DNA of 64,000 nucleotides, taken from positions 4,552,083 to 4,616,082 of the forward strand of contig CM026429.1 of assembly GCA_014871385.1 (NCBI GenBank). The letters run 5' to 3'. Under the pieces are notes generated by a model, which was given only the letters and a program-made list of their open reading frames with translations, did no database searches and was not told the DNA's origin. Shown piece after piece: positions 14,526 to 63,129 of the stretch (position 1 is the first letter of the stretch; each line of letters begins with the position of its first letter). This DNA is from Ceratodon purpureus (Eukaryota; Streptophyta; Bryopsida; Pseudoditrichales; Ditrichaceae). A program made the translations under genes and the position numbers.

Positions 14526-15261
14526 GGGGAAGCACAATAAAGTGGACCAAAAAAGTGCTTATCTTTTCCCCAATTTCAGCCCCTTCCGTAAACACTAGAG
14601 AAAGTGGGATCTCCGTTACGTCGATGCAAAATTAAGTTTGGGATACAGAAAGTAGACTTGATCTTCTTCAACTTCCCAAAGTTGCGGGAAAAGAAATTGA
14701 GTTTACAATGGAAAACGAAGACGTCGAAGTCGGACAAAGTGAATGCAGTCATTTGGGAAAGTGAACATAACAGTTTAGGGTTTTGTTCGAAATCACTTTC
14801 AATTTTGCGGTGCCCTATGTATGTTTAAAAGGTATTTTATAATAGTCAATTCATATACTCATTAATTGGTTTAGGATTCCAAAAGTATCGCAAGGATGTT
14901 TTTTAAGAGGATCACTTCCGCGGTACTTTTTGGCCGATTTTTTTCACCGAACATTGTTTTTTAAATTGAAAAAAACATCCTTTAAAGACAATAGAAGGCA
15001 CCAAATAAAAAAATTAAGACTTTGGAAAAGTTCATTTTCATGATTTAGAACTAGTGGTCAAATTTAGTTTCAAGTGAGGATGTTTTTTTTATGAAGATGC
15101 GTGTAAGATAGCTTATGACACTCTAGAAAGTGACTAAAATGCTCAAAAACTACACCAAAATGCTCAAAATCAGATTTGAGCTTTGAAAAACAGAACACTT
15201 TATAATCACTTCCAAATGATAACATGTATCACTTTGTGGTCCACTTTATTGTGCTCTCCCC
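14526..15261. mobile_element. Non-autonomous TIR element, copy 1 (736 bp)
   Basis: The left end reads GGGGAAGCACAATAAAGTGG; the right end, reverse-complemented, reads GGGGGAGAGCACAATAAAGTGG. The flanks carry a short direct repeat CTCAA (14521-14525 and 15262-15266), a target duplication of 4-5 bp. A second copy of almost identical length (737 bp) occurs at 49427-50163 with similar sequence through most of its length, including the stretch TTTTTTAAATTGAAAAAAAC and the repeated AAAATGCTCAAAA words. No long ORF is present, so the element would need a transposase in trans. The superfamily is unclear: the termini and duplication length do not clearly fit Mutator, hAT, PIF or CACTA. Confidence 0.85.
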
Positions 15262-16864
15262 CTCAAAGATTCCTTGTTAGAAGGCCACCTTAGCGCTGAT
15301 TATATAACGTTTTAGAGTTTCTACTCTAATTAAGGTAGCAACACCCATAAGCATCCTTGTGCCTGTAAAAATCCCTTCTAAAATCTCAAAAAATCTAGGG
15401 AAGTGAATAGATATGATTCCAAGGATGTACCACTTCTAAACATTTGACCTTAGTGTCGACATTAGGTGTCTCTATACTAAACTCTTCAAAAATTCATAAC
15501 TTATTCATACAATGTCCAAATAATGCATTTTGAAGTGCATTGGAATTATTTTTCTCTTGCTATTGTGATCCAATAAATTTTAAAAAATTCTAAGAATAGA
15601 TAAGCATGCTTAAAACCCTTAAAATGCGAGTGTATCAACTGCTGAACCACTGCTAAAGCAAGCAGAGTTGGAACCTTGAAACTTGAAACCTCCTGGAGTC
15701 ACCTGAGATACCGCATTATTAATCCCTGCAACTTACGTTGTACGTCTCTGCTTGCCTTCGAGTTACTCCCACACTTGCTGGACATTGACAGACACCTCTG
15801 GAGCAGATGCTTGGCAGCAAGCCTGTTCCCTGGCCCTTCACAACCTAGAGGGCACTTGCAAGTTGCAGCGTCTCTATCACAAACGGGACTACAAGCATCC
15901 CATGAGCTTCATGTTCAAAGTTCAGAGTCCAGACGAACTGTTCAGAGTACCAGACTTGAAGTAGTTAAAAGCATGTGCACGTACGTAGTGCTAGTAGTAC
16001 TGTCCTTCAGACGTCCTGGCTAAATTGATAACTTAGTGCCTGCTGCTGCTCCACCATGATGCAACTCACTCATCATCGACTCTACTCAAGTTTCTGCAGT
16101 TGAGACGTAAAGAGTAGGCCTTGTTAATGTGTCCTATTTCTAGCTCTGATGTTTGGAGGAGACGAGCTGCGGTTGTTTGTTCTTGGACGAAGAACAAGAG
16201 AGGTGTCTGGAATATTAGGGGTGATTTTATGGATAAGCGAATGGGTGTGATTGCTAGATGGTTGGATATAGTTGCATTTACAAAAGCAGAGACACCAACA
16301 GATATTGTTCTCCACCTCACAGAATTGGAGGTTATGGCCATCGACTGTGGTAGAGACTGTTATCTAGTATTGCATTGCCCTTGGAAGCAGCCTTTCGTAA
16401 TTTGGCAAAGGAGGCAAGCCTGAAGTTTACATCACTTATTCTGTCGAAGTTCGCAGAAGCTAATAGAAGTTCGACGACATTGTCCAGACTAGAAGAAACA
16501 TCACTAGAGAGCTCTTAACTTATACCAGATTAAGATTTTCTTTGAAGGGATAGTAATAGAATCATGAAGCAGACAACGAAGACCTTTATCTCCACACGTT
16601 TCAAATATATCTTGAAAATTCAGCAATGAATATGAATCAACGGAATGTATTTGTGTTATCACCATTACCTTTATTGTGGTTTAGAACAACTAAAAATTAC
16701 AAAACTGTTAAGTGTGGACATATGTGCATCTAATGACTTGTATAGTGCCGTACAGTACTTCCGAGTCTGCACAATTTAAGTCAAATATTCACCCAACGGA
16801 GTGCATCATTTGCATGAGGAGCAACTTTGTGGATTTCGACACAGTAGTAGTTTATCTCATGGGC
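15262..16864. other. Spacer with two unassigned open frames
   Basis: Besides the frame at 15752-15964, a plus-strand frame at 16121-16423 is open for 100 codons (for example IRGDFMDKRMGVIARWLDIV) but matches nothing I know and has no clear splice context. The part next to 16864 is expected to be the aquaporin 3' UTR. Confidence 0.35.
15752..15964 (+). pseudogene. Possible terminal exon or gene fragment, unknown family
   Basis: I do not recognise this product. The frame has balanced, coding-like composition and ends KVQSPDELFRVPDLK before TAG at 15962-15964. It also contains the stretches ADAWQQACSLALHNLEGTCK and RLYHKRDYKHPMSFMFK. It starts with a non-ATG codon, so if real it is an internal or last exon; the frame stays open a little upstream, through ATYVVRLC. 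No companion exons are visible in the AT-rich DNA to the left. It could be a stranded fragment of a gene or a chance frame. Confidence 0.25.
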
Positions 16865-24628: not shown

Positions 24629-27600
24629 TTAATCAATCATTTCGAGCCAGAGTTTGCAGCATACTTTCTCGATATGCCAGTGTAGCCTGTTGAAAGCGGC
24701 GTCATTTCTTTCTTTCCACAAGGACCACATGATAGCTCCCCTAAGCAGCAGCCAGATACGACTCACCTGCTTGAAGCGTCGAGGCATCATGTGTGCAAAG
24801 ATCCCGTGCTTCCAAGATATGGCGGTCCTCAATTGCTGAGTCTGAGGGGAGGAGTGTCCCTGTGATATGTGCACCTGTGCCGGGTGGGTTACATCCCCTG
24901 GACCTGGTGGGGCCTCGTTTAGGTCGGGCACGTTAGGCACGGGCGGGGGTTGGGGTTGTGGTACCGTAGCACCAGCTCCTAGCATGGCACGCCTCGGTGA
25001 TGGTGGGTGGCCAGGATCTCCGGTCCTGCTATCTGCAACCAAGGCGGGTTGGCTGGGACTACCGGGAGGAGTCTGGGAGGCCCCTTGTCCGTAGGGGACG
25101 AGGGTGTTGAGGATGTAAGCTCCCCACTGCCATGCTTTCACCGCCGCGGGGCATTCCCAGAAGTGGTGAAGGATTGTTTCCTTGACACCGTTCAAGCATA
25201 CAGGACAACATTGATCGATGCCTTGAGGATTAAATTTCCCTCTCCATGCGTTGACTTCTACACCTTTGTGCCAGATGGCCCATATGAGGCCGGTCTCCTT
25301 CTTGATCCTACCAGGATCCCACGCATTAAGCCATCGAAGTTTGTACGAGGGGGGGAGGATCCCACTCCACTTCCTCGGAACTACCTCAGGAACAGGATGA
25401 GTCCGTAGCAAGAATTTGCGGGCCATACTTGCAGTGTAACTCATGAACTCAGTCTGATTGGGCCAAGAAAATCGGGCCGGATCCCATTCCAGGAGGTGTG
25501 TCTTATCGTAGTACATGCGAATAATGCGTTTCTTCGGGCCTCTTTTGGTTTCAGCCACTCTGACTCTCCTGACACACCCTGCCAGGATGTTCACAGTGTC
25601 GTCACCGCGGCTATCATAGGTCGCTCCCCTCATCCGAGTTGACCAGGGGATTTCCACCAAGCTCGCAGATTTGGGTCGAACGGTGTAGGCTACTACGTCT
25701 GTCGGGACAGAGTGGTAGTTCGGGCCGGCGAAAGGGTAAAAGGTCTCTCCCGTTTGGCACACCATCAGCGGGAGGGGGGTGTTATCATCCTCGAAGATTC
25801 CTATCCAATCTCCCATGATTGGATCCCGGGCTTGACGGAGAAGGGGAATCCAACGTTGCATGGCTCGAGAAGTGACTGCAGTCCAGGCACCTGCCTCCTC
25901 GGACCGCAGGCCGTAAGCTTGTAGTGCCTCCTCGGGGGTCATGAAACGCCCGCGTCTCCAGACGTCACGATAAAAGCGAAGGCCGGCCCTGTGCAGGGAG
26001 GCAGCCCTGAGTCTGGAAAAACCGGGGCCTATAGCTGGCACCTCGGGGTTCCACCACCAGCTGAGACTAAGGACTTCTTCCCAACATTTCGGGGGGACGA
26101 AGGTGAGGGCTGGCAGGAGGTTCTTCTAGGCAGGTGTGACCCTGTTCCATGTGATCGACCCCCTCCGTGCTTGATGTTTTGGGATTGTAAAGTACTCAAG
26201 GCTTTCGGTCCATCTACCTCCACTATACGGTTGGGCTTGGGCAAGCTTGTGGCGTAGTAGGAGGTGGAGGTTGGTTACCCCGGGTTCCATGGCTTTCACT
26301 ACCCATTTGACCATTAGGGCCGACACCGCATCTTCTGGGTTAATCAAATTGATCCCGCCCTCTGCCTTCGGTTGGCAGCAATGCAGCCAGCTTACTCTCG
26401 CCCGAGACTTCTCCACCTTGCCGGCAGCAAGGTAATTCAGGATGGATGATCGCAGTTTGGCCACGCCTTTTTTGGAGCCCCCCCATACTGAAAAGAAAAA
26501 GAACAAGCACGAGAGCAGGATACTGTTTACCACAATACCTCTACCCGTGCGGTTGATGTGGGTCGTGCTCCAGTGCGTGAGTTTGTTGGCCAGCCTCTTG
26601 TGGAGGAAGGCATTCACATCAGAGGTTGTGAGAGACAACCCGAACGGTGCTCCCAAGAGCTTGCTGACACTGGTATTGTCAGCCTACGTAACCCCCAAGT
26701 TTTCCGTCCAGGCTGGTCTCTCTAACTGAAGGCGACTCTTCCAGTAACCGTTAGATTTATTCCAGTTTAGTACAAGCCCAGTCGCCAGGCAAAAGACGTT
26801 GAGGGTTCGGACGAGCTGCATGGCCGACGACTCCTCCCCGAGGAGAGTAAACAAAGTGTCGTCAGCGTATTGTGCTAGCGTTTGCTGACGGCCTGGAAAG
26901 GGGAGCTGAATTCCTTTGACCCTTCCCTGTTGAATCTCCTTGGTGACCATAAGATCCAGCACCTCTGAGATAATTAGGAAGAGGTAGGGTGCTAGAGGGC
27001 ACCCTTGCCTGACCCCCCTTCCAATTTGAAACTGCGGTGACGGCGTGCCATTAACGTTCACAGCTGCGGCTGCCTTCGTGAAGAGCAGGGATACCATCTG
27101 TACAAACTCATGAGGGAAACCCATCTTGTACATAATTTTGAATAAGCATCCCCATTCGACCATATCATACGCCTTCGAGAAGTCAAGTTTCAAGAAGAGT
27201 AGAGGCTGGTCCGATTGTTCCACCCATGTCATCGTTTCTTGGGTGAGAAATAAGTTGTCGAGGATGAAACGCATTGGCAGAAATGCGGATTGATCGGGGC
27301 TGATAATCTCCATTAGGACCGGTTGGAACTTGGAGACGTAATTGCAGCGCTTTGGCGTAGATTTTGTAACCCATATTCAAGAGAGTAATGGGCCGCCAGT
27401 TTGTGAGAGCTTGGCGGGGTCCTCCCTTGTGTAAGAGGGTTATCATGCCATGGGTGACGCCGGCTGGGAGGCGGCCCTTGCAGATGCTCTCAAGAATCAT
27501 TAGGTGAAAATCCGCCCCTATGCAGTCCCAGAATTGCTTATAGAATTCCAGCACCGTGCCGTCTGGCCCCGGAGCTTTCCCAGGCTGCATCTCATCCACC

Positions 27601-29012
27601 GCCTTTTTCAGTTCGGCCTAGGTAATCGGGAGCTTGAGCTCTGTCTTCATGTCTCCCGGTATGCAGTCCTTCACGCATCCTAAGGCTGTGGCCTCGGCAA
27701 CTTCCGTTTCCGCTGTCGCAGCTCTGGCTGTGTATAGCCTCTGATAATATGCTTGACATATTTCCCCGATGGAGCTCTGACTCGTGTGCACTTGGCCCGC
27801 CTGGTCTTCTAATGCCGTGATGTGTGACGCTGTGGACCGGGCTTTATGAGCCTGAAAGAATTCTTTTGAACTCTGATCTCCCTTCTGTTTCCATTTAAGC
27901 CGGCTCCGCAACCTCTGGCCTTCTAGTTTCCTCGCCTCAACTTGGCTAAGGAAGTCCGAGGCCTCAAGAAGAGCAGCTTGGGCTGCAGGGTCTGTGGGGG
28001 CGACTTGAAGGATGGTGACAGCTTGCTCTAGCTTAGCCCTCCGATCGGCCTCCTCTGCTCTATTTTCTTGAGCTTTCTTCACGCAGAAGTCTTTATAAAA
28101 CTTGACGCATTTCCTCAATTTTCCGAAGAAGGGAAGTCGGGCGTTGTTGGACCAAATGGATCTGATCTTACGCCCAACCTCTGCATCCTTTAAGTACAGG
28201 GCGTTCATGACATATGTGGAGGCTCGCTTGACTTCCGGCTCCAACCACACTCGCCGTCTCACGGGCAGGTGGTCTGAGTGGTGGCAGTCGCCCATGATAG
28301 TGTAGTCATCCGCAGGTGAAGAGCCTTCAACCCCTTGGGGTGTGTATATTTTGTCGAGGCAGGCAAGCACCCGGGTCCCATCCCTGTGTTGACTGTCCCA
28401 GGTATACTTGAGCCTACTCTGAACTGGGAAGGAATCCTCTACTTGCAACGCTTCTTTCAGTTCTTGGAATATGCGTTTCTCTATTTCCGTGACACTTGAG
28501 GCGCGGCCTGACGACTTGTCCTCCCTGCGTTCGACAAAGTTCCAGTCACCGGCAAGAATCCACCGGCAGTCCCGGGGCAAGTCTTTTAAGAGCTCCCCCC
28601 AAAGTGCGCACCTTTCTACCGATGTGTGTGGAGCATAGACATTTACTATCGCAATGTCCTGCCCCGATACCCCTGAAAATCTCACCCACTGGGCATTTCC
28701 CCCCCTAGAGCAGCCGTCTGAATGGACCAAGTGGCTCATGGCTGGGGTCACCCAAATGCGGATGCCCCCGCTTCCTGCTCCATCTAAATTGGTGTCGTTG
28801 TTATAGGCGACTTGTGCCTCCTGTCCAAAAAACTTTGCTCCGGCCCACATGAGTTTGTGCATGGCTTGAAACTTTGCTCCCCGTAATTTCAATTCCTGAA
28901 AACAGATCACTTCTGTCTCCCGCAGGTGCTTCCTGTAGTAATCTTGCACAAGGTCCACTTTGGCCCGGTTGTTTAGGCCCTGGACGTTCTGGCTTAAGAT
29001 TGTAATCTTCAT
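24629..29012 (-). pseudogene. LINE ORF2: endonuclease / reverse transcriptase / zf-RVT, disrupted
   Basis: The ATG at 29012 overlaps the stop of a frame ending at 29009 (ATGA). The endonuclease shows SQNVQGLN, CFQELKL, ILAGDWNFV and HHSDHLPV. The RT shows GKAPGPDG, LKLDFSKAYD, RQGCPLAPYLF and YADD (about 26859-26870). The C-terminus has a CxxC...HHxxxxC finger and WKERNDAAFNR. Lesions in one otherwise continuous frame: TAG at 27620-27618, an apparent 7-bp insertion near 27324-27335 that shifts frame, TAG at 26686-26684, and TAG at 26128-26126. After TAA at 24631-24629 the frame stays open and protein-like for 41 more codons to TGA at 24505-24503, so that TAA may be a fourth premature stop. 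The role in an intact copy would be target nicking and cDNA synthesis. Confidence 0.93.
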
Positions 29013-29295
29013 ACAAACGATTGTGCGAGGTTGGCCACCACTGGCCGGGGATAAGGACTGCTTTGGTTGACTCTAAAGTTCCTTGCTTTGCGCAGGGACT
29101 TCGCCTTGCCTGGGGACGGTTCTTCGTTTCGTCTGGCTATCGTTTGCTGGGCAAGCCTTGGTTGGAAGGGGGATGCCGGGAAGTTCGCTTGAACTCCCTG
29201 TTCCTGTAGCCACGCCTTCATGGCTGGGAGGAGGTGGAGAGGGATTTGTGCTTCAAACCCTCGGCTTGGGAGGGGCGGTGGGGGGGGGGGGGGGG

Positions 29296-43975: not shown

Positions 43976-46504
43976 GGAGCATCGGGCATGTGGGAAAGTG
44001 CGGATGACTCTAATTTGATATTTTCATTTAATTGAGCCCAGTTCAGCTGAAAGGTCCAGTTAATCCGTTGACCAAAGCTGCTTGTACTGACTTTGTTGCT
44101 CTTATCCTTCAACGCATCCTCAAGTTCTTGCAAATGGAGTGAAATGCCTTTACCTTGCATGTTAGAAATTTGGTGGATAGAAGGTAGAAATAGTTTACCA
44201 TTTGGTGGACTTTTGATGCCTTATGGCTAAGATAAAGGATAGATAAGGCTGAAGTAAAGTTGAAGGGGTTTTCCAATAAGTAGTTGAGGCCCATGAGGCG
44301 TAAGTATGGGCTCGTGTTGACTTTGGGAGGAGACAAAGGGGTCGGGTTTCCCTCTCTCCACCACCGTAGTTTAGTTTTCGGTGTGCAGTTTTTGGAGAGC
44401 GAAAGCTTAGTGTGTACTATGAGTTTTTCTATGAGATTTTGAGAGGTTGTACATCTTGTTGTTGTGGTTCTATAATGATATGGCATGCTCTATTTGAGAT
44501 TAATATGTAATTTCTATGTATGTTTGAATGGGAGAGTGTGCTGTAAAAAAAATTTGGAGGACTGAGACTTCAAAAGCTTGTAGAAACTTGTTTATAGAGT
44601 TTTTATTTACAAAATTTGAGCATGTTAAGTTTTATTGTGTTATTTTTTTATGGTGCTTTATAAGTTTTGATTTAGTTTGTTTGAGATAGATTTTTGGCTT
44701 TGAAAGTGAGAGGGTGTTGAGCTGCCAAATAGATTCAAGAGTGGAAGTAGGCATCAACTTCAACTGAGCATAGAAATTGTTTGGTATAGAAATTGTTTGG
44801 TATAGATTCTGAAGGTGAATTTTGGAGAGAATTTAGGTGATATTATCAGCTTTCTAGAAAGCTATCACTCGACCTTGGAAAAGCTTGTATGAAGTCAGAG
44901 TGTTCTTTGAAGCAAAAAGAGGTGCAGTTGATGCTAAATATGGGAGTACGACCTTTGGCGAGCTATGGACTCTTGACAGTAGCTTGTTGAGCTTCAATAT
45001 TTCTATTTCTCTGTGAAGCACTTTGATAGCTTTCCAAAATGCTAAAGCACTCCTGATTTGAAGTGTTTATGCTAATTTGGTGGTTAATTGAAGTTTGGCT
45101 ATTATTTTAGGGGGAGATTCGAGATTTTGAAGGTATGTACAAGACTTATACGGTTTTGTATATAGTAGACCGTATTTATACTTTATACATGTATGTATCA
45201 GAATATTATACTTGTATGTATAAATCATGTATTCATATAGTATGTTTTACTATATTTATACATGACAAATATACGTATAAAAGTACTCGACATGTATGTA
45301 TAAAAATACTTTATGTATACGGATAGGAATACTCTACATATACGTACAAAGGGGTATAAGTTCAAGTATATATACATGATGTGGTCAAGGATTATTATTT
45401 ATATTATCCTTAACTTTCATGTCTTGAGCCAAAACTAATTGTAGCCAGAAATCCAGTATTTTCCTAAGGCAAAGACTTCTCTACCCGATAGTGCTTTTTG
45501 GACCTCAGGGACAGTTTTTGTTTCCCTAATGTTTGATCGCGTTCATATTTTTGTCTTTCTATGTCACTTCATTTGTAGGACTAGAATTTATGTATAGGCT
45601 GAGCTCCTCCCGGGAGGGGCTCACTTTGAGTAAATCCCGTGGGAAACATATCGATCAAGGCAACTATGGTGCAGTGCGGTCACCAACGTTGTAGGCTATT
45701 TAACGAGCATTTGGCATGTGGCGGTGACGTGACAGCCGGTTTCCCTGGCCTCCTTGGTTTTTTCTGAGGTTGTTTTTTCATTTATTGCTTTAACCGCGGT
45801 GTGGATTTAAAAAGCTATAGTGTAGTGCAGCTAAGCGAACTAGCCTGACTACAGTTGATTGCCAAGGTTGTAAGGTGCGTGGGTTTGACTGGGGTGGTGT
45901 CAAGTTCTATTCCCGAAGGCGCTGAGAGTTATCAGGCTGCCCTTCTGAACTCCTAAAAAATCGACCTCTACTAGGACATTTGGGCGTGGCGGGCTTTTTG
46001 CTAGGGCGGGCATTCCGGGACGGGAGGTGCATCGGGGGAGAATACAAAATCTCCCCGTAGGGAGTTACGTTCTATTCGAAATGTTTTCAATCATATATAA
46101 TTCTAAGTACATCTTGGCCCTAAGAGCATTCCAAGTGGACCTCTAAGCCCTTAAACCTCCATCTGACTTCATCCGGGTTAACCGTTAGAGGCTTAAAGGT
46201 CCTCTAAGCTCCCAGTGGTGACCTATAAACACCTTTCTCATCCAAGCCGCGACCTCTAGAGGAAAAAAGATCTCTAAATTTCAACCCTTTAAAGGCCACG
46301 GTTAAATCGCCAGAAATAGTAAATTTCAAGTTCTCATCTTTTTATCTTCTTACTACTACACTTGGGTTTGGATTTCTTTCGCAACTTGTTAAAGAATTTC
46401 ACAACAACCAAGTAAAGAAATCGATTACAAGTCACCTTTAATGGAGGACCAAAATTCCACTCAACCTGTAATTGTGATGTAACTATGCGTTGAAGACCCT
46501 TTAA
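43976..46504. other. Spacer with simple repeats and SINE-like patches
   Basis: 45127-45365 is rich in degenerate TATACATGTATGTATAAA-type words (alternating purine-pyrimidine). 44770-44806 holds two copies of an 18-bp unit (ATAGAAATTGTTTGGTAT). 45601-45622 is a near-perfect 22-bp palindrome centred on CCCGGG. 45.5-46.1 kb is GC-richer than its surroundings. No gene recognised. Confidence 0.5.
45819..45990 (+). mobile_element. Possible tRNA-related SINE fragment
   Basis: CTATAGTGTAGTGCAGCTAAG resembles a pol III box A region, and AGTTCTATTCCCG further on resembles a box B. The spacing is longer than in a tRNA and no tail or target duplication is clear. Confidence 0.25.
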
Positions 46505-47241
46505 CCCCCAAATGCTTGAGCCTATGACGACGGAAATAGACTTTGACTTTGGATGCTCTATTTTGCTACTATAAATAATGTTAAATATGAATTTTTAATT
46601 TTTCTTCACTATATACACATGTTATCTACAAGAAATAATTTTATCAAAATTAGTGGTTCCATTATGTAATTAATATAAATTTTCAAATAAAAACAAACAA
46701 AGAAAATTCATATCAAATATAGGTTATACTAAAAAATTACCAAATATCTACCATAGATGTATATGACAACCAAGAACCTTATACTAGTTACCGTGCTTTA
46801 AAATTATATTTTAATTCAAAAACCTAGAACCGTGGAAAATCAAGTAATAGCCACGATAATACCCCTTCATCTTATGCCAGCTATAAATCACTCAATTTTA
46901 GGTATTTTTTAAATTTTAAATTAGACTGGAAAATAAAATTTTCAAGCTACATTTCATTAGTTTACCTCAATTGTAAAAAAAATCATCTCAATAGTCAAAA
47001 TTGTGTTTCAACTATATGTATTAAAGAATTTTTGAATACAAACACGATATTGATGTTTTGGACTTTAAGGAGGCACCAAAATTCATGAAATTATAATTTT
47101 GAAAATTCATTAATGAGATTAGATAGATTTCTCACAACTTTACAACATGAAAAAATGGATGAAAATTTGTCATTTGGATGACACTTATGAAACTTGGAAA
47201 AATGAGATCGACCAATTTTTGGTCGTTTAGGCGTCTTAGGG
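46505..47241. mobile_element. TTAA-flanked element, two-copy family, copy A (737 bp)
   Basis: TTAA at 46501-46504 and 47242-47245. The left end is CCCCCAAATGCTTGAGCC; the right end, reverse-complemented, starts CCCTAAGACGCCTAAACG. A clearly related copy lies at 61893-62645 in the same orientation, alignable end to end (for example GACTTTGACTTTGGATGCTC in both). The right subterminal region contains the palindrome CGACCAATTTTTGGTCG. Non-coding. Confidence 0.85.
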
Positions 47242-48936
47242 TTAAAGGTTCACAGTAAGGCGACTACTGGGGATGCTCTAAGTACGGTTGTTGGAGACCG
47301 ATCACGCTGGAAATCGATGGTTGTGTAACTGCAAGTCAGCTTCTGGGAGATGGGTGAATGTGGTCGGACTGAACCTTGTTCAGACTTTCAGGCACGAAGA
47401 GGACAGGGGCTCCTGCAGATGCAAGTGCGCTGGTGAACGCGGACGATCCGAATTGCAGAGGATAACGGAATTACGTTTTCCATCAGGTGTGTCTAAATAC
47501 ATATGTTCTGTTCCAATCTATGGCCAATCCAACTTGATCAGCGATCAAATGTTGGCTTCTACGAGCTGTCTCTCACGCTTTCTGTGTACTAGCCAGTTGG
47601 ATTGGCCTGGCTGCAAATTGACCCATGTACTGTGGCACAGAAACTACTGTGGAGGAGGGGCCTATTGCCGACGGAGAGGTCCTTCAAGCGAATGCAGTCC
47701 ATGCGTGTCGACAGGGGAATGGGAATTGAGAGGGTGACGCTCCGATCTGCAAGAGAAAATGAGCGCTCGTTGATACGAATGTAATATATGGCGTTATTTA
47801 GAAGGTACATACACATGAAACCAATCGAGCAGGCATTGATCGCTAATTGTGGTCACATTATGGACTTTGTTAAGCTGGTGTCAGGCACTTTTTCAATGTG
47901 TTCCTATTGGGATTCCTATATAAACTGTTCAGAGTACTTGTTTTCCTTTGAGCTTCTCTCGGGCCGGTTTCTGGATGGCTCACGTCCTGGTAATATTGCT
48001 GATCCTGTATGAGGGCTTCCACTTGCGATACACTCTGCCGACGGCATGACAATGACTGCTGTTCCTCATTTGTGGATTCTGACTCTGAATGTAAAGGTAA
48101 GGAAGGTCGGGAATGTATGTGAAGAAAAATTTGGAGGAGAGGTGTTCCTTACGCACGAGAAGTGTTGAAGGCTCCAGGAAGGGTTCTTTATTGGTTGAAT
48201 GCCTAGTAGAAGATTTCTATTTGCAGGCGTCGGATTATTACTCACTCACCGAAGCCACTGCTCCATCTGCGTGCCAAGACCTACCACAAGCGGGGCGTAC
48301 GGGCAACCATTGCCTAGAACGGAGGCACCCTCTCTACCCACTAGAAGGGAGCTGGATGAGCGACTCCTGCCGGCAGGGCGCCCAAGTTCTACCCCGCCGA
48401 TGATGTCCCGAAGCCTATGCACAAGAAAAACGTCATCAACCCGCCCAAGCTCAGATACGACTTTCCATCTTGCTGCCATTCTTGCTAACTATGTATGCAT
48501 ACCAAATAGAGTCAGAAATGTTCTTGTAGAATTCCAAACTTCAACTCATTGCCAGAGATGTTGACAAAGTTGAATCAGGTTCAATTCGCAAGTTCATAAA
48601 TTCTCTTCCAAATTCCAGCAATATCCGTCAGTTATCCTCGTCTAATTTAGTAGCCTACAATTAACCTTTCTGAAAAAGTCATAAAAAATGTGAAAGGAAG
48701 CTCTAAACCACAGGCTGAATTCATGTCACAAAGCTATGCTCGGCACAAATGAACATTCCATAGGCACATTAATTATCTTCTCTTCATGTTGGAATCTTGA
48801 GATTCTGCGCTTGCCCAGTTTGTGTCCAAAATGGCACCACACCAGGACGCTGCAACATCACCAAGGTTAATAATGATGCAGATCACAGAGAGAATTAGGA
48901 GATGGAGGTTCCTGGGAGCCCATCCAAGGTAAACTT
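47242..48936. other. Spacer and 3' flank of the NLR gene
   Basis: Higher in GC than the DNA to its left. Frames at plus 47288-47737 and 48199-48564 are open for more than 120 codons but match nothing known, and overlap frames on the other strand. The segment next to 48936 is expected to be the NLR 3' UTR. Confidence 0.4.
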
Positions 48937-51900
48937 CTAATCAACAATTTCCCACGTTTCGCCTGCATCATTGATCTCCACTTCTACATCAACATTACTT
49001 TCAGTGGGCAACAACACTGAGTTTGGATTTACCAAAGGACAATTTTTTAGACAGAGACTCGTCAATCCCTTAGAGCTGGAAAGGTCAGGCAAGGAAAACA
49101 GCTCTAAGCAGTCGTATACAAAGAGAGCTTCAAGTGCAGGCAAGCTCTTAGTGTTGTCCATTCTTTTCAGGAACCTGCATCCATGCACATCCAGAATCTT
49201 CAAGCTCGTCAAGCTACTCAAGTCTGGAAGACTGGCGATGGGAGTCTCCCCGCAATAAAGAGACTGGAGGACCTTGCAGTTCAGAACACCAGATATGTCC
49301 TCCACACTTGTACCGCTGATACACAAACCAGTCAAGGCTGATTCGATATTGAACTGTGGCAATGAATTCAGTCTCCAACTATTCTCTGCACTGATCACCT
49401 GTAAAGTTTCGGGTAAAATTGGGTGAGGGGGGAAGCACAATAAAGTGTACCAAAAAAGTGGTTAACTATTTGACAGTTTCAGCCCTATGTGTAAACGGTA
49501 GAGAAAGTGGCATGTAGGACTTCTTGATTGAAAATTAAGTTCGGGATATGGAATTTAGACTTGATGTTCTACAACTTCCCAAATTTGCGGAAGAAGATGT
49601 TGAGTTTAGACACCTCTACGAACACCATAAAGTCAGACAAAGTGAAAGCTGTCATTTGGAAAAGTGATCGTTTTACATTGTATTTACAACAAAAATCACT
49701 TTTGACTTCGCGGGGACCTCCGTTTGTACACTACGCATGTAGAAATGATCTGGACAGCTGAGGTTGGAATTCTAGATTGGCCAAAAGTGTCTAAAATACG
49801 TTTTTAAGACGCTGTTTTCCGTGAAACTTTTGGGGAGTTTTTTTTCACCGAACATTGTTTTTTAAATTGAAAAAAACATCCTCTAAAGACAATAGAGGTC
49901 CCCAAATGAAGAAATTAAGACTTTGAAAAAGTTCATTTTCGTGATTTAGAACTAGGGGTCAATATAAGTTTCAATTGAAGATATTTTTTTTATGAAGATG
50001 TATATAAGACACCTTGTGACACCCTAAAAAGTGACTAAAATGTTCAAAAACTACACCAAAATGCTCAAAATCAGCTTTGAACTTTAAAAAACAGCACACT
50101 TCATATTCACTTCCTAGTGATCACATGTTGCACTTTGTGGTCCACTTTATTGTGCTCTCACCCGTGAAGACTCCCAGTGTTGCCTGCACTTTCCAGAGCT
50201 TCACAGTTATCCAAAACTAAGTAGGTGAGCTTGCTGAGTTCACCGCACTCAGGCACATACCTTATCATGGTACCTGAAAGATTGATGGCCGTCAAACCCT
50301 TCATCGAAGAAATCCATGAAAAATCCTCGAGGTTCGTATCAGACAAGTCTAGCTCACTCAACCTGGTACTAGCCTCAATCCCAGGGAGTTCCTCCAGTTC
50401 TTCCCCACCCTTCAATGAGAGTCCTCGAAGCATAATCAAGTTGGCAAGTCCGTGTATCTCCTTCACTTTTGCAGCTCCTTCCAAGCGGAATGATTTCAAG
50501 GATGGGAAATTGCTCACTGAAGGAAACTCCAGGAGGGAAGAACACACACACAAGTCAACAAACTCCAACTTGACCAGAGCTTCGAGACCTTCGAATCTTT
50601 CCACGTATTGGCAACTATTGACCCTTAAAATTCTTAAGTTAACCGCTTCATGAAGGTTGAGACAATTGAGAGGCAGATAAGATAAGTGAAGAGTGTCCAA
50701 ATTGGGGTTACTACGGAAATCCAGAGACCCCCGGGGAGGTGGAGGTGACATCTCTTCAGCACTCAGCAGCCATAATCCTTCCAGCGACTCCAAACTAGTC
50801 AAATCTGGAAATTCCCCTTGAAAGCCTTCCCAACTCAAACATTGAAGGTTTACAGCTCCTTCTAGATTGATAGTTGTCAAATGAGGGCAACCACCGGTTA
50901 CTTCGAACATCTTGAGATTTTGCATGCCTGGAACATCTACACTCCTCAGGTTTGGGCAACCTTGAATAGTGATTAATTCTGCTGCTGAACATATTGTGCA
51001 TGACAATATATCTCTTGTACTTACACGTTGAATCAACTGATTTTGAATGCGAAGCCTTCGCTCTTGAACAGAACGTTGACGGTTAGCCGGACGAGTCAAA
51101 AAACAGCTTGGGCTGTGCACCAATCCTTTCTTTTCTACCTCGATTATTGCAAATTCATAGTAAAGATCATGAATGTATATTCTTCGAGACTCAACGTCGT
51201 AGAACTCAATAAGTGATTTTGCTTGAAGGTCTTTTACCTGTATAACATAAAACCATCAGAATAAACATAACGATCTACTGTCAAAACAACAAATTACATT
51301 TTCAGAAATGGTAAGGATGTGAGTTAGATATTCTTATCATTAGAAATCATTCTGACTCACATCCTTATCATTTCTAATGTTAGAAAAAAACATTCAACAT
51401 TGAGATTGTAAACAGGATTAAACTCACCAATTTGGAAATGAAGCAGTTTTTTCCTTGCTTGTTTTCACCATACAAACACCGCATTTGCCATTCCATATCA
51501 TATTCACTTATACCATCAATGTAATCACTTCTGCTTAATGCCAGATCCAAAAACATCCTTTGATAGCGAGGAATAAGAGCATCATAACTTGATCTTAGGA
51601 TTGAAAATATATGGTGTATATTTTCATTTTCAGAACGTTTGAAATCAATTTCAATATCACACCACTTTTCGGGATTAGGCCCAACTCGAGTACCCAACAC
51701 TTTCAATGCAAGTGGGTGATATTCTTGTCCAACCCTGTCTTCTGTTTTGAAATTACATTGTTCCACAAGCATCTCCACAGCACTCCTCTGATCTTTTGAG
51801 AGAAAAGATGTGCCACATCCTGTATGATGAATGAACAATGCCATGGCTTCATTTGTAGTTAAAGCTGGAACCTTCATCAAAGCTGTGATGTTCAAATCCT

Positions 51901-54724
51901 GTAAGATATATTTGCTTCGTGAAGTAACCAAAATAGAACTCCCTTCTTTAAAAGGAAGATTAAGAAGTATCCTAGCTTCTTCAAGGGATGTCTGAGTGTC
52001 TGAAACATTATCAATAACCAAACATATTTTGTACTTGGATATATGGTCCTTCAAAAGTCCTAAGATCTGTACAATGGAACATACAAAATGAAAAAGAGTA
52101 AGTGATATTGAATTCCATGATATCTACCATAATTGAATTCCATGATCTGTATGTAAAATACATCGATATAATTAGTAGTTTAGACATACCTCTCCTTCAT
52201 CCACTATAGTTGATAAGAACCCAGGATCAAGATAGCTGATGCATTGTAGTAGTTTTTTGCGCAATTGCAATGAATCCATAGTGCCCAATTCGATGTGGCA
52301 TGACCTTCCAAAGTAGTGTTGCATCATCTCATTACAAAACACCTTAGATATAGTAGTCTTTCCAGAACCTCCCATGCCATATAATCCCATGTAAGTTGTA
52401 TATGTTGATTCTACTTCTCCAGAAGCATTGTATGATCTTTGAAACTTCTGCATTAATAACAAAAGTTTTAAATAATTATGTACCCTCATAGTTTAAAACA
52501 ACAATCCCAGTACAAGATTTCACATGCATTGATGTCTTTAATTAACATCAATTAATGAATTCAAATTCTACCATGTTCTAAACAAAATTGAAATTACAAT
52601 GATATTGAAACAGGGTTTCTAATTCAATACATAGAGGTTTCAAATACATACCACTTCAATCATCTCATGCATGCGAGCTTTGCCTTGCACATGTGAATCA
52701 TCCCACAAAATTTCATGCTTCACTAGCTTACAAACTGTTTCCACAATTTTTAGTCTTAACGCCTTCTTCCCCATTGCTTTCCCCATTGCTTTGTCAAATT
52801 CAATTCCGTTAGTACGAGAAATCACTTTCAGTGCTTCTTTCCAATGCTGTATGTCATCCTCGGAAACAGACAACTGATTCCAAGTTTCCACATAAATTTT
52901 TTGCCGCTCAGGTTGCTTGAATTCCTCCACCGAAAGTTTGTAAAAGATAGGAAGTATCTTCAGCTCTAGCCGTGTCTTCTGAGCTTCTACAAAAGTAGCC
53001 AATTCCAACATAGGCCATTTTCGAGTAAAGTAGTCTGTGGAGATCACCACAATGGCCAATTCACAGTTCTTTGCTGCATCCAAAATCTTTTGAGGAAATG
53101 GCTCTGCTTTAGGCAAACTTCCGTCATCTTTATCAAAAAATGTTCCAAAATGATGTACTTTTAAAAGTTCTTGATGTAATTCTTCCACAAAATGTTTTTG
53201 AGCACCAGCATGACTTAAAAAGATCTTGTGTTTCTTGTGAGAATCCCTGCACTCACGTAGTACACAGTAATCAACAGTTGAAACAAATTTGACGGTAATA
53301 GTTCCTAGTAGTTAATAGAGTAAATTGGTGGAATGAAAAATGTGGCAAATACCAACTAGGACAACTTGACAAGTGATACAATAAAAGAACTCATCCAAAG
53401 TCTACACTCACCTTTTAGTGTAAGATGTCTCCAAACCTGGCTTTAGAGATAAACTTGTGTATTTGAGTCTGAGATTTTTCTGCCATGACAATATGTGCAA
53501 TATTTTTGGATGAGATTCAAATGACTGTCATGGAAAATCTCAAATAAAAAGCCACATCACATATTTACAGTAGATAATCATTTCATCCAACAAACGGTCA
53601 GGATCAATCATGATAAGCCGTGGGACTTCACAAATTGGCAAATGTAAGTTGGAACAAACCTAATTATTGTTGTACAAATTTGAATGGTGAGTCCCCTCTA
53701 CCTGTATTAAAGACATGTGAGCGTCGCTGTGGTTTTCTATCTTGGTTGATGATGGAGTAGTCGCAGTCTCTTCTGCACTGTTCACATGGCTCGTCATGTC
53801 TGTTTCTGTCAGTGGTTTTCTCCTTACCCACTGGAAATAACAGCTCGACAAATCTCTCTCTTCAATGTATGACCACTGGGGAACATTTGGCTTGCTGAAA
53901 CTTGATTGAATGCTTTTAGAAATATGAAAACTTCCCAGCCATATTTTTGTAGGTCCAAAGTGACCTAAACATTCTTGATGTAATTCTTCCACAAATTGTT
54001 TCTGAGCACCAGCATGACTTAAAAAGATCTTGTGTTTCTTGTGAGAATCTCTGCACTCACGTAGTACATAGATTTCAACATAAGATTTAAATAAAGCAGC
54101 AGTTGAATTGAATGTGACATTAAATAGTTCCTAGTAATTAATAGAATATTTCTGTTGATGAAAAATGTGGCATTACCATTAAATGAAAATAATATAATCA
54201 AAGGACTTGTTCAATGTCTATACAAACCTTTGCTCAGATGGATCTCTATCTCCCATGTATGACCACTGGGGATCCAATGGCTTGCTGTAAATCGACTTAG
54301 ATTTACAGTGTCTCTCTGGACACAGCACCTCAACAGCAATCATCGGATGCTCTCTAGAATGCTCAGGAGGCATGTCCACCGTATCCAATTCTCTGTAGCA
54401 TACTTCACAGAGGTCAAAATCAAAGCACTTCTTGCAACGCCAACGTTGGTTACAAATTGGAAATGATTGACAACCGCCGCAACCAAATGGCGTTACATGT
54501 GGTGACATGCAGTAGTCTTCAGTATGCACGTGATGAGGAGCCGATAGTACATCAGATTCTTCCAGTGGTCCCTTGTAGCAATTTTCACAGAGGAAGTAAT
54601 CCTGGCATAAATCACATTCCCACATCCGTGAGGTCCAGCCACCAAGTGTATCACAAGTAGCACAGTGCTTATTCAAAACACTGAAGGAGTGTGCCGACGC
54701 CATGACTGTGACGTCTTCAGCCAT
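48937..54724 (-). CDS. ZZ-ZZ-TIR-NB-ARC-LRR immune-receptor-like gene, LRR exon split by a transposon
   Basis: NLR family intracellular receptor. Exons: 54228-54724, 52652-53246, 52190-52447, 51428-52066, and 51237 down to the stop at 48937-48939 (TAG); phases agree (2,0,0,0). Exon 1 encodes two ZZ-type zinc fingers: CATC...CDLCQDYFLCENC...HHVH, and CGGC...RCKKCFDFDLCEVC...HSREH. Exon 2 is a TIR domain starting HKIFLSHAGAQKHFVEELHQ, with the likely catalytic Glu in WPMLEL. Exons 3-4 are NB-ARC: P-loop GMGGSGKTT, kinase-2 KICLVIDNV, RNBS-B GSSILVTSR, GLPL-like HPLALKVLG. Exon 5 begins with the MHD-like YIHDLYYEFA, then LRRs. The 737-bp element at 49427-50163 interrupts the LRR exon: as it stands, translation would stop two codons after the junction (GGG TGA). 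Without it the protein would be about 1180 aa. A truncated receptor lacking the last LRRs remains possible. Confidence 0.88.
49427..50163. mobile_element. Non-autonomous TIR element, copy 2 (737 bp), inside the NLR LRR exon
   Basis: Related to 14526-15261 and nearly the same length. Ends: GGGGGGAAGCACAATAAAGT at left; reverse complement of the right end GGGTGAGAGCACAATAAAGT. The flanks carry GTGA (49423-49426 and 50164-50167), a 4-bp target duplication (5 bp if one mismatch is allowed). Removing the element plus one GTGA restores an open LRR frame across the junction (minus strand ...GSLH|PILPETLQV...). Confidence 0.9.
53660..54050 (-). pseudogene. Partial duplicate of the NLR exon 1 tail and TIR exon start
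   Basis: After an acceptor at 54051-54053 the frame reads RDSHKKHKIFLSHAGAQKQF, almost the same as the TIR exon start at 53246. After VEELHQE it departs from the TIR and runs into SKPNVPQWSYIEERD, resembling the exon 1 tail SKPLDPQWSYMGDRD. The introns upstream of both TIR starts are also alike (for example GATGAAAAATGTGGCA / GAATGAAAAATGTGGCA), 804 bp apart. Visible donors in this segment leave phase 0, while the next TIR exon needs phase 2, so it is probably skipped. Confidence 0.65.
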
Positions 54725-61098: not shown

Positions 61099-61892
61099 GC
61101 ATGAGATCGACAAAAGCTTGATTGATTAGTTGGTGCAAAGTTCTGAGACTCGCCAGGTCTGGACTAGAAAGAGATCTTCATCTCAGGAAGGGCTTACTCC
61201 ACATCAGGCCTTGTTCCGGAGCTTGAAAGAATGGGAACAATCTATGCAGCATGAATCGAACCCAGTTGAAGAAACTGACAAACGCATGCGAAATCGGAGT
61301 CGACGCAAATTCACTGCAAAACTGGAAACCCTAATCTGCCATCGCCATCGCCTTCGGATGACTCTGTTCTTTCGTCATCATTTGTTCATATGAATGATGA
61401 TGCGTTCTGTCATTTTTGTTCATTCAGATGAATGAGTAAGTGTTCTAAATTTGGGTAAGTATTGTACATTGATAGCAGGTTTGTTCATAAATAGTTCTTT
61501 TAAAAATAAATAAAAATGGAAATTTCAAGGATGGAAAAACAAAAATATGATAAATCATTTTATGTTTAAGGACATTTTTAGTATATTTAAAATAAAACAA
61601 AAATTAAAATATATAAAATTTAAAATATTGAAAAAACGAGATTTATTTTTCCAAAAATAAATAAATATCACTTCAAAGGTGAACAAACCTTCTGTCAATG
61701 TACGGTATCCATGTCCGCAACGAAAAGGATTGTATGGTCAAACTTAGATTATATTCAAAGGTCGTTTTATTTGAAAAAATTAGCTAGGTCGGGAAAAATA
61801 AAATAATACCAATGATTGTGAGTGATCTTATTTCAAGAGTAATGGAGCTCATTTCCATGTCCATAAAAAAATTAGTCCATGAAGTAAGTTAA
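61099..61892. promoter_or_regulatory. Upstream region of the WDR53-like gene
   Basis: 61099-61400 is probably the 5' leader and core promoter. A plus-strand frame 61130-61393 starts with TTG and has no recognisable domain. The rest is AT-rich. Confidence 0.35.
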
Positions 61893-62645
61893 CCCCCAAA
61901 TGCCTGAGCCTATGACCACGGAAATAGACTTTGACTTTGGATGCTCTATTTTGCTACTATAAATAATGTAAAATATGAATTTTAAACTTTTCTTAGCTAG
62001 ATACTCATGTTATCTACAAGAAACAATTTTATCAAAATTAAATGTTTCAAAATGTATTTAATATAAATTTTCAAATAAAAACAAACAAAGAAAATTCATA
62101 TCAAATATAGATTATACTAAAAAATTATGAAATATTTACCATAGATGAATATGACAACCAGAAACCTTATATTAGTTACCGTGCTCAAAAATTATGTTTT
62201 AATTCAAAAATATGATGAAAAAACCTAAAACCGTGGAAAATCAAGAAGTAGCCACGGTTATACCCCTTCATCTTATACCAGCTATAAATCACTCAATTTT
62301 AGGTATTTTTCAAAATTTTAAATTGGACTAGAAAATAGATTTCCAAACTACATTTCAGTAGTTTACCTCTACTCCAAAAAAGATCATCCCGATAGTCCAA
62401 ATTGTGTTTCAGCTGTCTGTATCAAGGAATTTTTGAATATACACACGGTTTTGATCTTTTTGACTTTAGAGAGGCACCAAAATTCATGAAATTATTATTT
62501 TGAGAATGTGTTAATGAGATTAAATAGATTTCTCACAACTTTACAACATGAAAAAAAAATGGATGAAAAATTGTCATTTGGATGACAGTTATGGAACTTG
62601 GAAAAATGAAAACGATCAATTTTTGGTCGTTTAGGCGTTTAGGGG
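61893..62645. mobile_element. TTAA-flanked element, two-copy family, copy B (753 bp)
   Basis: TTAA at 61889-61892 and 62646-62649. Left end CCCCCAAATGCCTGAGCC; right end reverse-complemented CCCCTAAACGCCTAAACG, so 13 of the first 17 terminal bases pair. Related along its length to 46505-47241, with many substitutions and small indels, indicating independent old insertions. Non-coding. Confidence 0.85.
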
Positions 62646-63129
62646 TTAAAGTTGCTCAAATCCAGTAATTAGTGTTTTAGAGATAAAGGAGAAATTTAAA
62701 AATTAGACCTTAAAGACAAAAATGGACTATCTTAGCTTTGAATATTGATATCTCTTATTTATTTATTTGGAAGTCAACCAATTTCATCTAAAAATAGTCA
62801 AATTTTACTACACTTAATCGTATAAAAGAAAAATGAATATAATCCCATGAAATCTATTGGTTTTGGACATGCATTCCATATTCACATGGTCCACCAAAGA
62901 CCCAAAACCCGTCAATGCACCAAATTACTTAACCTTCACACTAGACTTCTAAGCCACGTGTACAAATCCAGTAAACAGTACCGGTTTTGCGTACTTCAAC
63001 TGTTTTGCAATACAGTAACGGTAATCAACACCCCGACGAAGATAAAAGGCTCCGATCATCTTCTAAGCTCCACTTATCAACACATACTCAAAACCGTCAT
63101 AACACCTAATCCCGCCAAAAAAACCACAA
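62646..63129. other. AT-rich spacer
   Basis: Nothing recognisable; a plus-strand ATG frame starts at 62847 but its composition is not coding-like. Confidence 0.4.

Follow-up and report, generated by a model that had tools for sequence, protein, structure and literature searches.

Plant NLR receptors with integrated domains carry an extra host-like domain at the N- or C-terminus, patchily distributed among paralogues, as far as the excerpts of Sarris 2016 and Chia 2024 at hand describe them. Such receptors have been reported in mosses (Sarris 2016, in the part available). The accessible text of Chia 2024 (PMC11218826) gives more than 315 receptors for Ceratodon and describes NLRs with N- or C-terminal integrated domains as expanded in that genus and in Sphagnum; zinc fingers appear in its list of domains integrated into the NLRs of non-flowering plants. 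The ZZ finger (PF00569) is mentioned among the NLR-like genes of P. patens (Andolfo 2019, PMC7145615), in a passage that does not state finger position, finger number or N-terminal class. Among the papers listed by text searches of the open-access literature, preprints excluded, no further report on ZZ fingers with NLRs was found. The association of a ZZ finger with an NLR in a moss is already in print, and the gene described here would be a variant of the known NLR-with-integrated-domain kind. The preliminary description of this DNA knew of no double ZZ module ahead of a TIR domain; in view of Andolfo 2019 and Chia 2024, the combination of ZZ and NLR is less novel than it had stated. The Ceratodon gene shares with the P. 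patens genes a ZZ finger and an NLR in a moss. It differs from other receptors with integrated domains in that the double ZZ stands ahead of the TIR and that its closest relatives are proteins of the N-degron pathway.

The ZZ fingers of the N-recognins p62 and PRT1 hold the alpha-amine of a free N-terminus by means of two Asp residues (PMC6197226, PMC6098011, PMC11668491, in the parts available). According to the portion of PMC11668491 at hand, it remained to be determined whether the ZZ of BIG, the plant UBR4, binds N-degrons.

The gene was analysed in a stretch of 64,000 nucleotides of Ceratodon purpureus, here called the window (C9:4552083-4616082), which belongs to a genome of 362.5 Mb in 151 contigs; the comparisons cover other loci of this same genome. 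Its features are the following.

54228..54724, minus strand: exon 1, with the start codon, two ZZ fingers and the first copy of an SKPxxPQWSY tail; donor gtttgt
54506..54664, minus strand: first finger (ZZ1), residues 21-73, ZZ by homology with the C6 copy
54329..54487, minus strand: second finger (ZZ2), residues 80-132, BIG-like; Gly83 at the position of the first amine-binding Asp, Asp102 and Asp104 kept
53966..54231, minus strand: tandem copy of 53162-53415, which takes in the donor region, intron 2 and the beginning of the TIR exon
53702..54050, minus strand: possible middle exon, which would be in frame and hold a partial TIR start with the exon-1 tail in its second copy
53412..53479, minus strand: small exon 2 of 68 nt, entered in phase 0 and left in phase 2; the paralogues share its position and phases
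52652..53246, minus strand: TIR exon; the Glu of its KWPMLEL aligns with flax L6 (KWCLMEL)
52190..52447, minus strand: NB-ARC exon with P-loop GMGGSGKTT
51428..52066, minus strand: rest of the NB-ARC, with a Pfam NB-ARC match
50162..51237, minus strand: first LRR exon, with an IHD motif in the place of MHD (by eye)
48937..49390, minus strand: last LRR exon, with the stop

Exon 1 opens with an ATG-started frame of 165 aa (54724-54230, minus strand), within which lie two C-x2-C...C-x2-C-x5-C-x2-C modules. When 54724-54228, 53246-52652, 52447-52190, 52066-51428, 51237-50162 and 49390-48937 are joined, 1,172 aa stay open up to the stop at 48937. The phase-2 end of exon 1 at donor 54228 and the phase-2 start at acceptor 53246 are thereby confirmed, as is the continuous frame through NB-ARC and LRRs; for the last LRR exon two acceptors were tried, of which 49390 is in frame and 49398 is not. 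The TIR exon scores 56.8 bits against Pfam TIR, both NB-ARC pieces exceed the cut-off of 23.5 (25.0 and 26.8 bits), and several LRR models pass on the LRR exons. TIR, NB-ARC with P-loop and LRR in one frame make the gene a TNL at the DNA level, and we infer from the frame the splicing that would unite them and the ZZ exon in one transcript. The Glu shared by KWPMLEL and KWCLMEL is presumably the catalytic residue of the TIR NADase; its alignment with L6 and the retained P-loop make it plausible that the window receptor is competent to signal.

The last NLR intron consists mostly of a 0.75-kb repeat (window 49429-50174), 77% identical to a copy at 14526-15273; by eye its ends resemble inverted repeats, with the splice donor supplied by one of them, and the intron was possibly made by a transposon. 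Elsewhere in the window, open frames on the minus strand at 24632-29072 resemble by eye a non-LTR retroelement with reverse transcriptase, and 46501-47247 and 61889-62651 form a direct repeat, 87.6% identical over 764 columns. Of 4,227 RNA families searched, none matched the window.

The two fingers differ in how readily they are recognized. ZZ2 matches Pfam ZZ at E 5e-9 (36.2 bits, cut-off 21.4), which places it in the family. When ZZ1 of the window copy was scanned alone with Pfam, the ZZ model was unmatched and weak FYVE/C1 matches appeared. Scanned in the same way, ZZ1 reaches 13.8 bits in a paralogue on C3 and 25.6 bits in another on C6, against the same cut-off. Its six Cys are conserved across the window, C3 and C6 copies, and the window ZZ1 weakly matches the ZZ of CBP (E 0.003). 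Homology with the C6 paralogue and the weak CBP match identify ZZ1 as a ZZ, although it is recognizable only through a paralogue. The two fingers of the preliminary description accordingly stand with different backing, the second over the Pfam cut-off and the first by homology. Structure prediction for residues 1-165, run on the single sequence, gave a mean pLDDT of 40.8 and no usable model.

Between the ZZ exon and the TIR exon lies a tandem duplication of 0.27 kb that had been missed. Segments 53966-54231 and 53162-53415 are 75% identical over 276 aligned columns, with 121/157 bases identical in the intron part and 82/87 in the TIR part (two acceptor bases counted). The tandem copy holds a second TIR start, followed by the second exon-1 tail copy and then by the small exon at 53479-53412; the tail copies read SKPNVPQWSYIEERD... 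and SKPLDPQWSYMGDRD.... Donor 54228 pairs with the donor of the small exon in the alignment of the duplicates. Three routes from ZZ to TIR are in frame: the direct 54228/53246 junction; a middle piece, 54050-53702, plus the small exon at 53479-53412; and 53894-53702 plus the small exon, where acceptor 53894 takes up the tail only. Owing to the duplication, the direct junction proposed earlier is in phase but has two in-frame alternatives; it is not the route that is conserved. A first exon beginning with the ATG that opens the small exon (MAEKSQ...) is not supported as the general case, the C3 and C6 copies being by eye without a donor in the required phase; in the window copy alone such a first exon is possible.

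Searching the genome with the ZZ exon finds C3:8578204 (55%), C6:68571591 (54%) and, in part, C4:8507850 (36%). All three loci have TIR and NB-ARC matches downstream on the same strand, that at C6 reaching the first NB-ARC piece only. One exon chain is common to all four loci, namely a ZZ exon ending in phase 0, a small exon and a TIR exon in phase 2; in the window the phase-0 end is the end of the second tail copy. The small exon runs from phase 0 to 2 everywhere and measures 68 nt in the window, 74 at C3, 68 at C6 and 68 at C4. With an open frame and matching phases at 4/4 loci, the module is a candidate integrated domain. The proposed ZZ-TIR fusion is not a one-off within this genome, and the order of ZZ ahead of TIR-NB-ARC given in the preliminary description recurs at paralogous loci with conserved exon phases. 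The copies are unequally complete. LRRs are reached in two of the four, at the window and at C4. The C3 copy keeps TIR and NB-ARC, with LRR models unmatched on the last piece scanned. At C4 there are NB-ARC matches to the window protein and an LRR frame, the Pfam family being unmatched on the second NB-ARC piece; this copy has a single finger that has lost one zinc ligand and still passes Pfam ZZ at 27.8 bits. In the C6 copy the TIR frame is broken. This copy (L030, C6:68.57 Mb) lies on a large, sex-chromosome-like contig, and its ZZ exon is open.

The ZZ exon is under net purifying selection: dN/dS is 0.35, 0.45 and 0.52 in the three pairwise comparisons among the copies at the window, C3 and C6, two of which involve the C6 copy with its broken TIR. 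These values indicate that selection maintained the ZZ module over some period.

Of the solved structures, BIG comes nearest to ZZ2 (E 4e-16), followed by HERC2 (4e-8) and PRT1 (5e-5), and most of the best solved relatives of ZZ2 are labelled E3 ubiquitin ligases or BIG. The sequence DFDLCE...H(S/T)R(E/D)HPM is common to ZZ2 and the BIG finger. The genome has its own BIG at C3:16.7 Mb (E 4e-213 to BIG), and this moss BIG is the best match of the ZZ exon after the two paralogues. In a small tree ZZ2 falls beside BIG, a placing without support (0.03). The ZZ exon does not make the gene a member of the BIG/UBR4 family, as it matches full-length BIG over residues 65-133 only. Unlike the finger of BIG, ZZ2 sits in a receptor and has Gly in the place of the first amine-binding Asp. 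The p62 and PRT1 fingers belong to the same Pfam family and are the best matches of C-terminal fingers in two TNLs of this genome (L046 and L048); RING families, however, are unmatched in the NLR pieces scanned, and the finger of L046 is without two zinc Cys.

The genome-wide ZZ search lists 24 places, and 22 were examined with their surrounding DNA. The N-terminal family accounts for three (window, C3, C6), and in eight the finger is C-terminal to NB-ARC and LRR (L032, L033, L034, L037, L038, L040, L042, L044). Two are C-terminal in TNLs:

L046:4668-4925: C-terminal ZZ, best match PRT1 (E 4e-7), then HERC2 (1e-6); without the second Cys pair
L048:4619-4846: C-terminal ZZ, best match PRT1 (E 1e-8), then HERC2 (1e-7)

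Both group with PRT1 in the small tree (support 0.95). Fingers of the same type as the C-terminal ones occur at two further places where NB-ARC was not seen nearby (L039, L041), and no NLR was seen alongside the remaining 7/22: BIG; L045, which has two RING stretches and whose ZZ is nearest to PRT1; L004 and L007, PRT1-like by alignment; L047, where ZZ accompanies Peptidase_C78; and L002 and L003, which we take to be HAC-like and ADA2-like. Of the two places outside the 22, one (C1:3961619) has an NB-ARC match on its own strand about 3.3 kb upstream. The ZZ-exon search, besides the C4 locus, supplied L035 and L036, also NLRs with C-terminal ZZ. As background, the NB-ARC model matched at least 121 places, all that were scored, of 311 candidates. 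The gain of ZZ fingers by NLRs is, judging from these placements, recurrent in this genome.

NB-ARC together with a C-terminal BIG-like ZZ was found at 10 loci examined. Six of these receptors (L034, L035, L038, L040, L042, L044) have DUF676, the hydrolase-type N-terminus, a count to be read with the frames of L033 and L036 beginning at the edge of the examined stretch; in L032 and L037 DUF676 was not found at E 1e-4. With DUF676 in six and NB-ARC in all ten they resemble the bryophyte hydrolase-type NLRs, from which they differ by an added, hypervariable C-terminal ZZ. A search with one C-terminal finger returned 13 close copies (at least 80% identity), of which 12 are in the analysed set; the 13th, on C10, has a stop. 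L041 (C7:2.66 Mb) and L042 (C2:17.48 Mb) have an identical ZZ protein end on two chromosomes. Close to L041 is a frame that matches a transposase below threshold; NB-ARC was not seen in the stretch examined, and the ZZ end of L041 looks as if captured.

The 12 C-terminal BIG-like fingers (L032-L042 and L044, from C3:8.17 Mb, C2 and C7) are similar in DNA apart from a few codons. At five of 68 aligned codons (columns 11, 13, 20, 21 and 34) at least five residues occur. For 11 of the 12 sequences, L041 being dropped because it is here the same protein as L042, pN/pS is 0.653/0.318 at the five codons, a value biased by their having been picked for variability, and 0.035/0.124 at the other 63. A fairer measure is overlap with the pocket: three of the five columns fall on positions that the p62 and PRT1 papers assign to the pocket (P 0.0099, with the mapping made by eye, across a one-residue length difference and after the columns had been seen). 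These three correspond to the residue that precedes the first Cys (p62 Ile127), to PRT1 Tyr317 and to p62 Asp147; columns 11 and 21 are close neighbours. The two amine-binding columns hold Asp in 10/12 and 11/12 fingers. In the same comparison the adjoining LRRs at 10 of these loci likewise differ at a small number of constant positions in each repeat. Variation of this kind, in fingers and LRRs, is what a contact surface under diversifying selection shows. The hypervariability was observed in the C-terminal fingers of other NLRs; the window's own family comprises three sequences, too few for such a comparison.

Our reading, held at slightly less than even confidence, is that the gene may encode a TIR-type NLR whose N-terminal double ZZ serves as an integrated sensor, with ZZ2 nearest to the ZZ of BIG. 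Sister genes with ZZ ahead and other receptors with ZZ at the far end suggest that mosses use these fingers to sense pathogens, and an integrated sensor, one of the two roles proposed in the preliminary description, is the best guess for the module. We infer the sensing, trigger and output as follows. The module would be engaged either by a pathogen effector whose target or binding partner is a ZZ domain of this kind or by a protein end to which such a domain would bind; the NB-ARC would then switch, and the TIR domains would assemble and act as NADase. In the window copy the pocket looks degenerate, and the module would more likely be a bait than a true reader of N-termini, whereas the ZZ of other NLRs in the genome may be such a reader. 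In favour of the sensor reading are the exon chain and phases common to four loci, the purifying selection, the match of ZZ2 to BIG, the repeated gain of ZZ by NLRs and the variation centred on the pocket of the C-terminal fingers. Weighing against it are the three possible splice routes, the defects of the C3, C4 and C6 copies, a possible ZZ-only product, the in-frame Met codons ahead of TIR at C3, C6 and C4, the origin of the hypervariability data in other NLRs, and the unsupported tree position of ZZ2. A wider proposal, which we regard as doubtful, is that moss NLRs repeatedly recruited the ZZ of BIG and PRT1 and that selection diversified its specificity pocket; the resulting panel of receptors would read new N-termini, for example those made by pathogen proteases, the window gene being its N-terminal, TIR-linked branch.

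The other role proposed at the outset, that of an N-degron reader, would make the module a working reader of N-termini and the receptor a sensor of the ends made by pathogen proteases, much as N-degron E3s read cleaved host proteins. This we consider unlikely for the window gene. The position of p62 Asp129 and PRT1 Asp312 is Gly83 in its ZZ2, the second Asp being Asp104; at the two positions the C6 copy has Asn and Asp, and ZZ1 is without either Asp in all three copies. For p62, single mutants at these residues, D129N included, lower the affinity nearly 30-fold in the text at hand, and the finger nearest to ZZ2, that of BIG, is itself one for which N-degron binding remained to be determined. 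The loss of the first Asp makes bait likelier than reader here. The idea fares better beyond the window: the C3 copy keeps both residues (CDGC...DFDLC) and thus passes, at the sequence level, the two-Asp test for an N-recognin that the window copy does not; the Asp columns are nearly fixed in the 12 C-terminal fingers while flanking pocket columns vary; and RIN4 fragments cut by effectors, with exposed Asn/Asp ends, are known (PMC8777003, in the part available).

Alternatively, the module may sense nothing and regulate the receptor itself, through folding, partner binding or turnover by the ubiquitin machinery. Purifying selection on the ZZ exon would agree with such a function, as would the E3 ubiquitin ligases and BIG among the best solved relatives of ZZ2. 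It predicts neither the pocket hypervariability of related NLR fingers nor the occurrence of ZZ at either end of the receptor with two kinds of closest relative, and we hold it to be rather unlikely. Less likely still is an arrangement in which the ZZ exon forms a small gene of its own, or gives a ZZ-only isoform, adjoining a TNL. In favour of it, three loci have an open frame that continues beyond the donor for 12-13 codons and then stops, the endings being similar (T(H/Y)HSN), which makes a ZZ-only product possible; the C3 TIR exon begins with Met (MVDQKYK); and the C3, C6 and C4 copies have in-frame Met codons slightly ahead of the TIR acceptor. Against it, ZZ and TIR are close, on the same strand and in matching phases with a small exon between them at all four loci, and in the window no Met precedes the TIR fold within the TIR frame, which hence needs an upstream exon.

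Integrated domains reveal which host parts are under pathogen attack. In the sensor reading, ZZ fingers most similar to two different proteins of the N-degron pathway, found at either end of two NLR classes in a single moss, would point to the N-degron machinery as a target of effectors. If it is true that the variable pocket reads N-termini, these receptors would constitute a plant receptor class that detects the products of proteolysis directly, an idea that can be addressed on domains of 60 residues.
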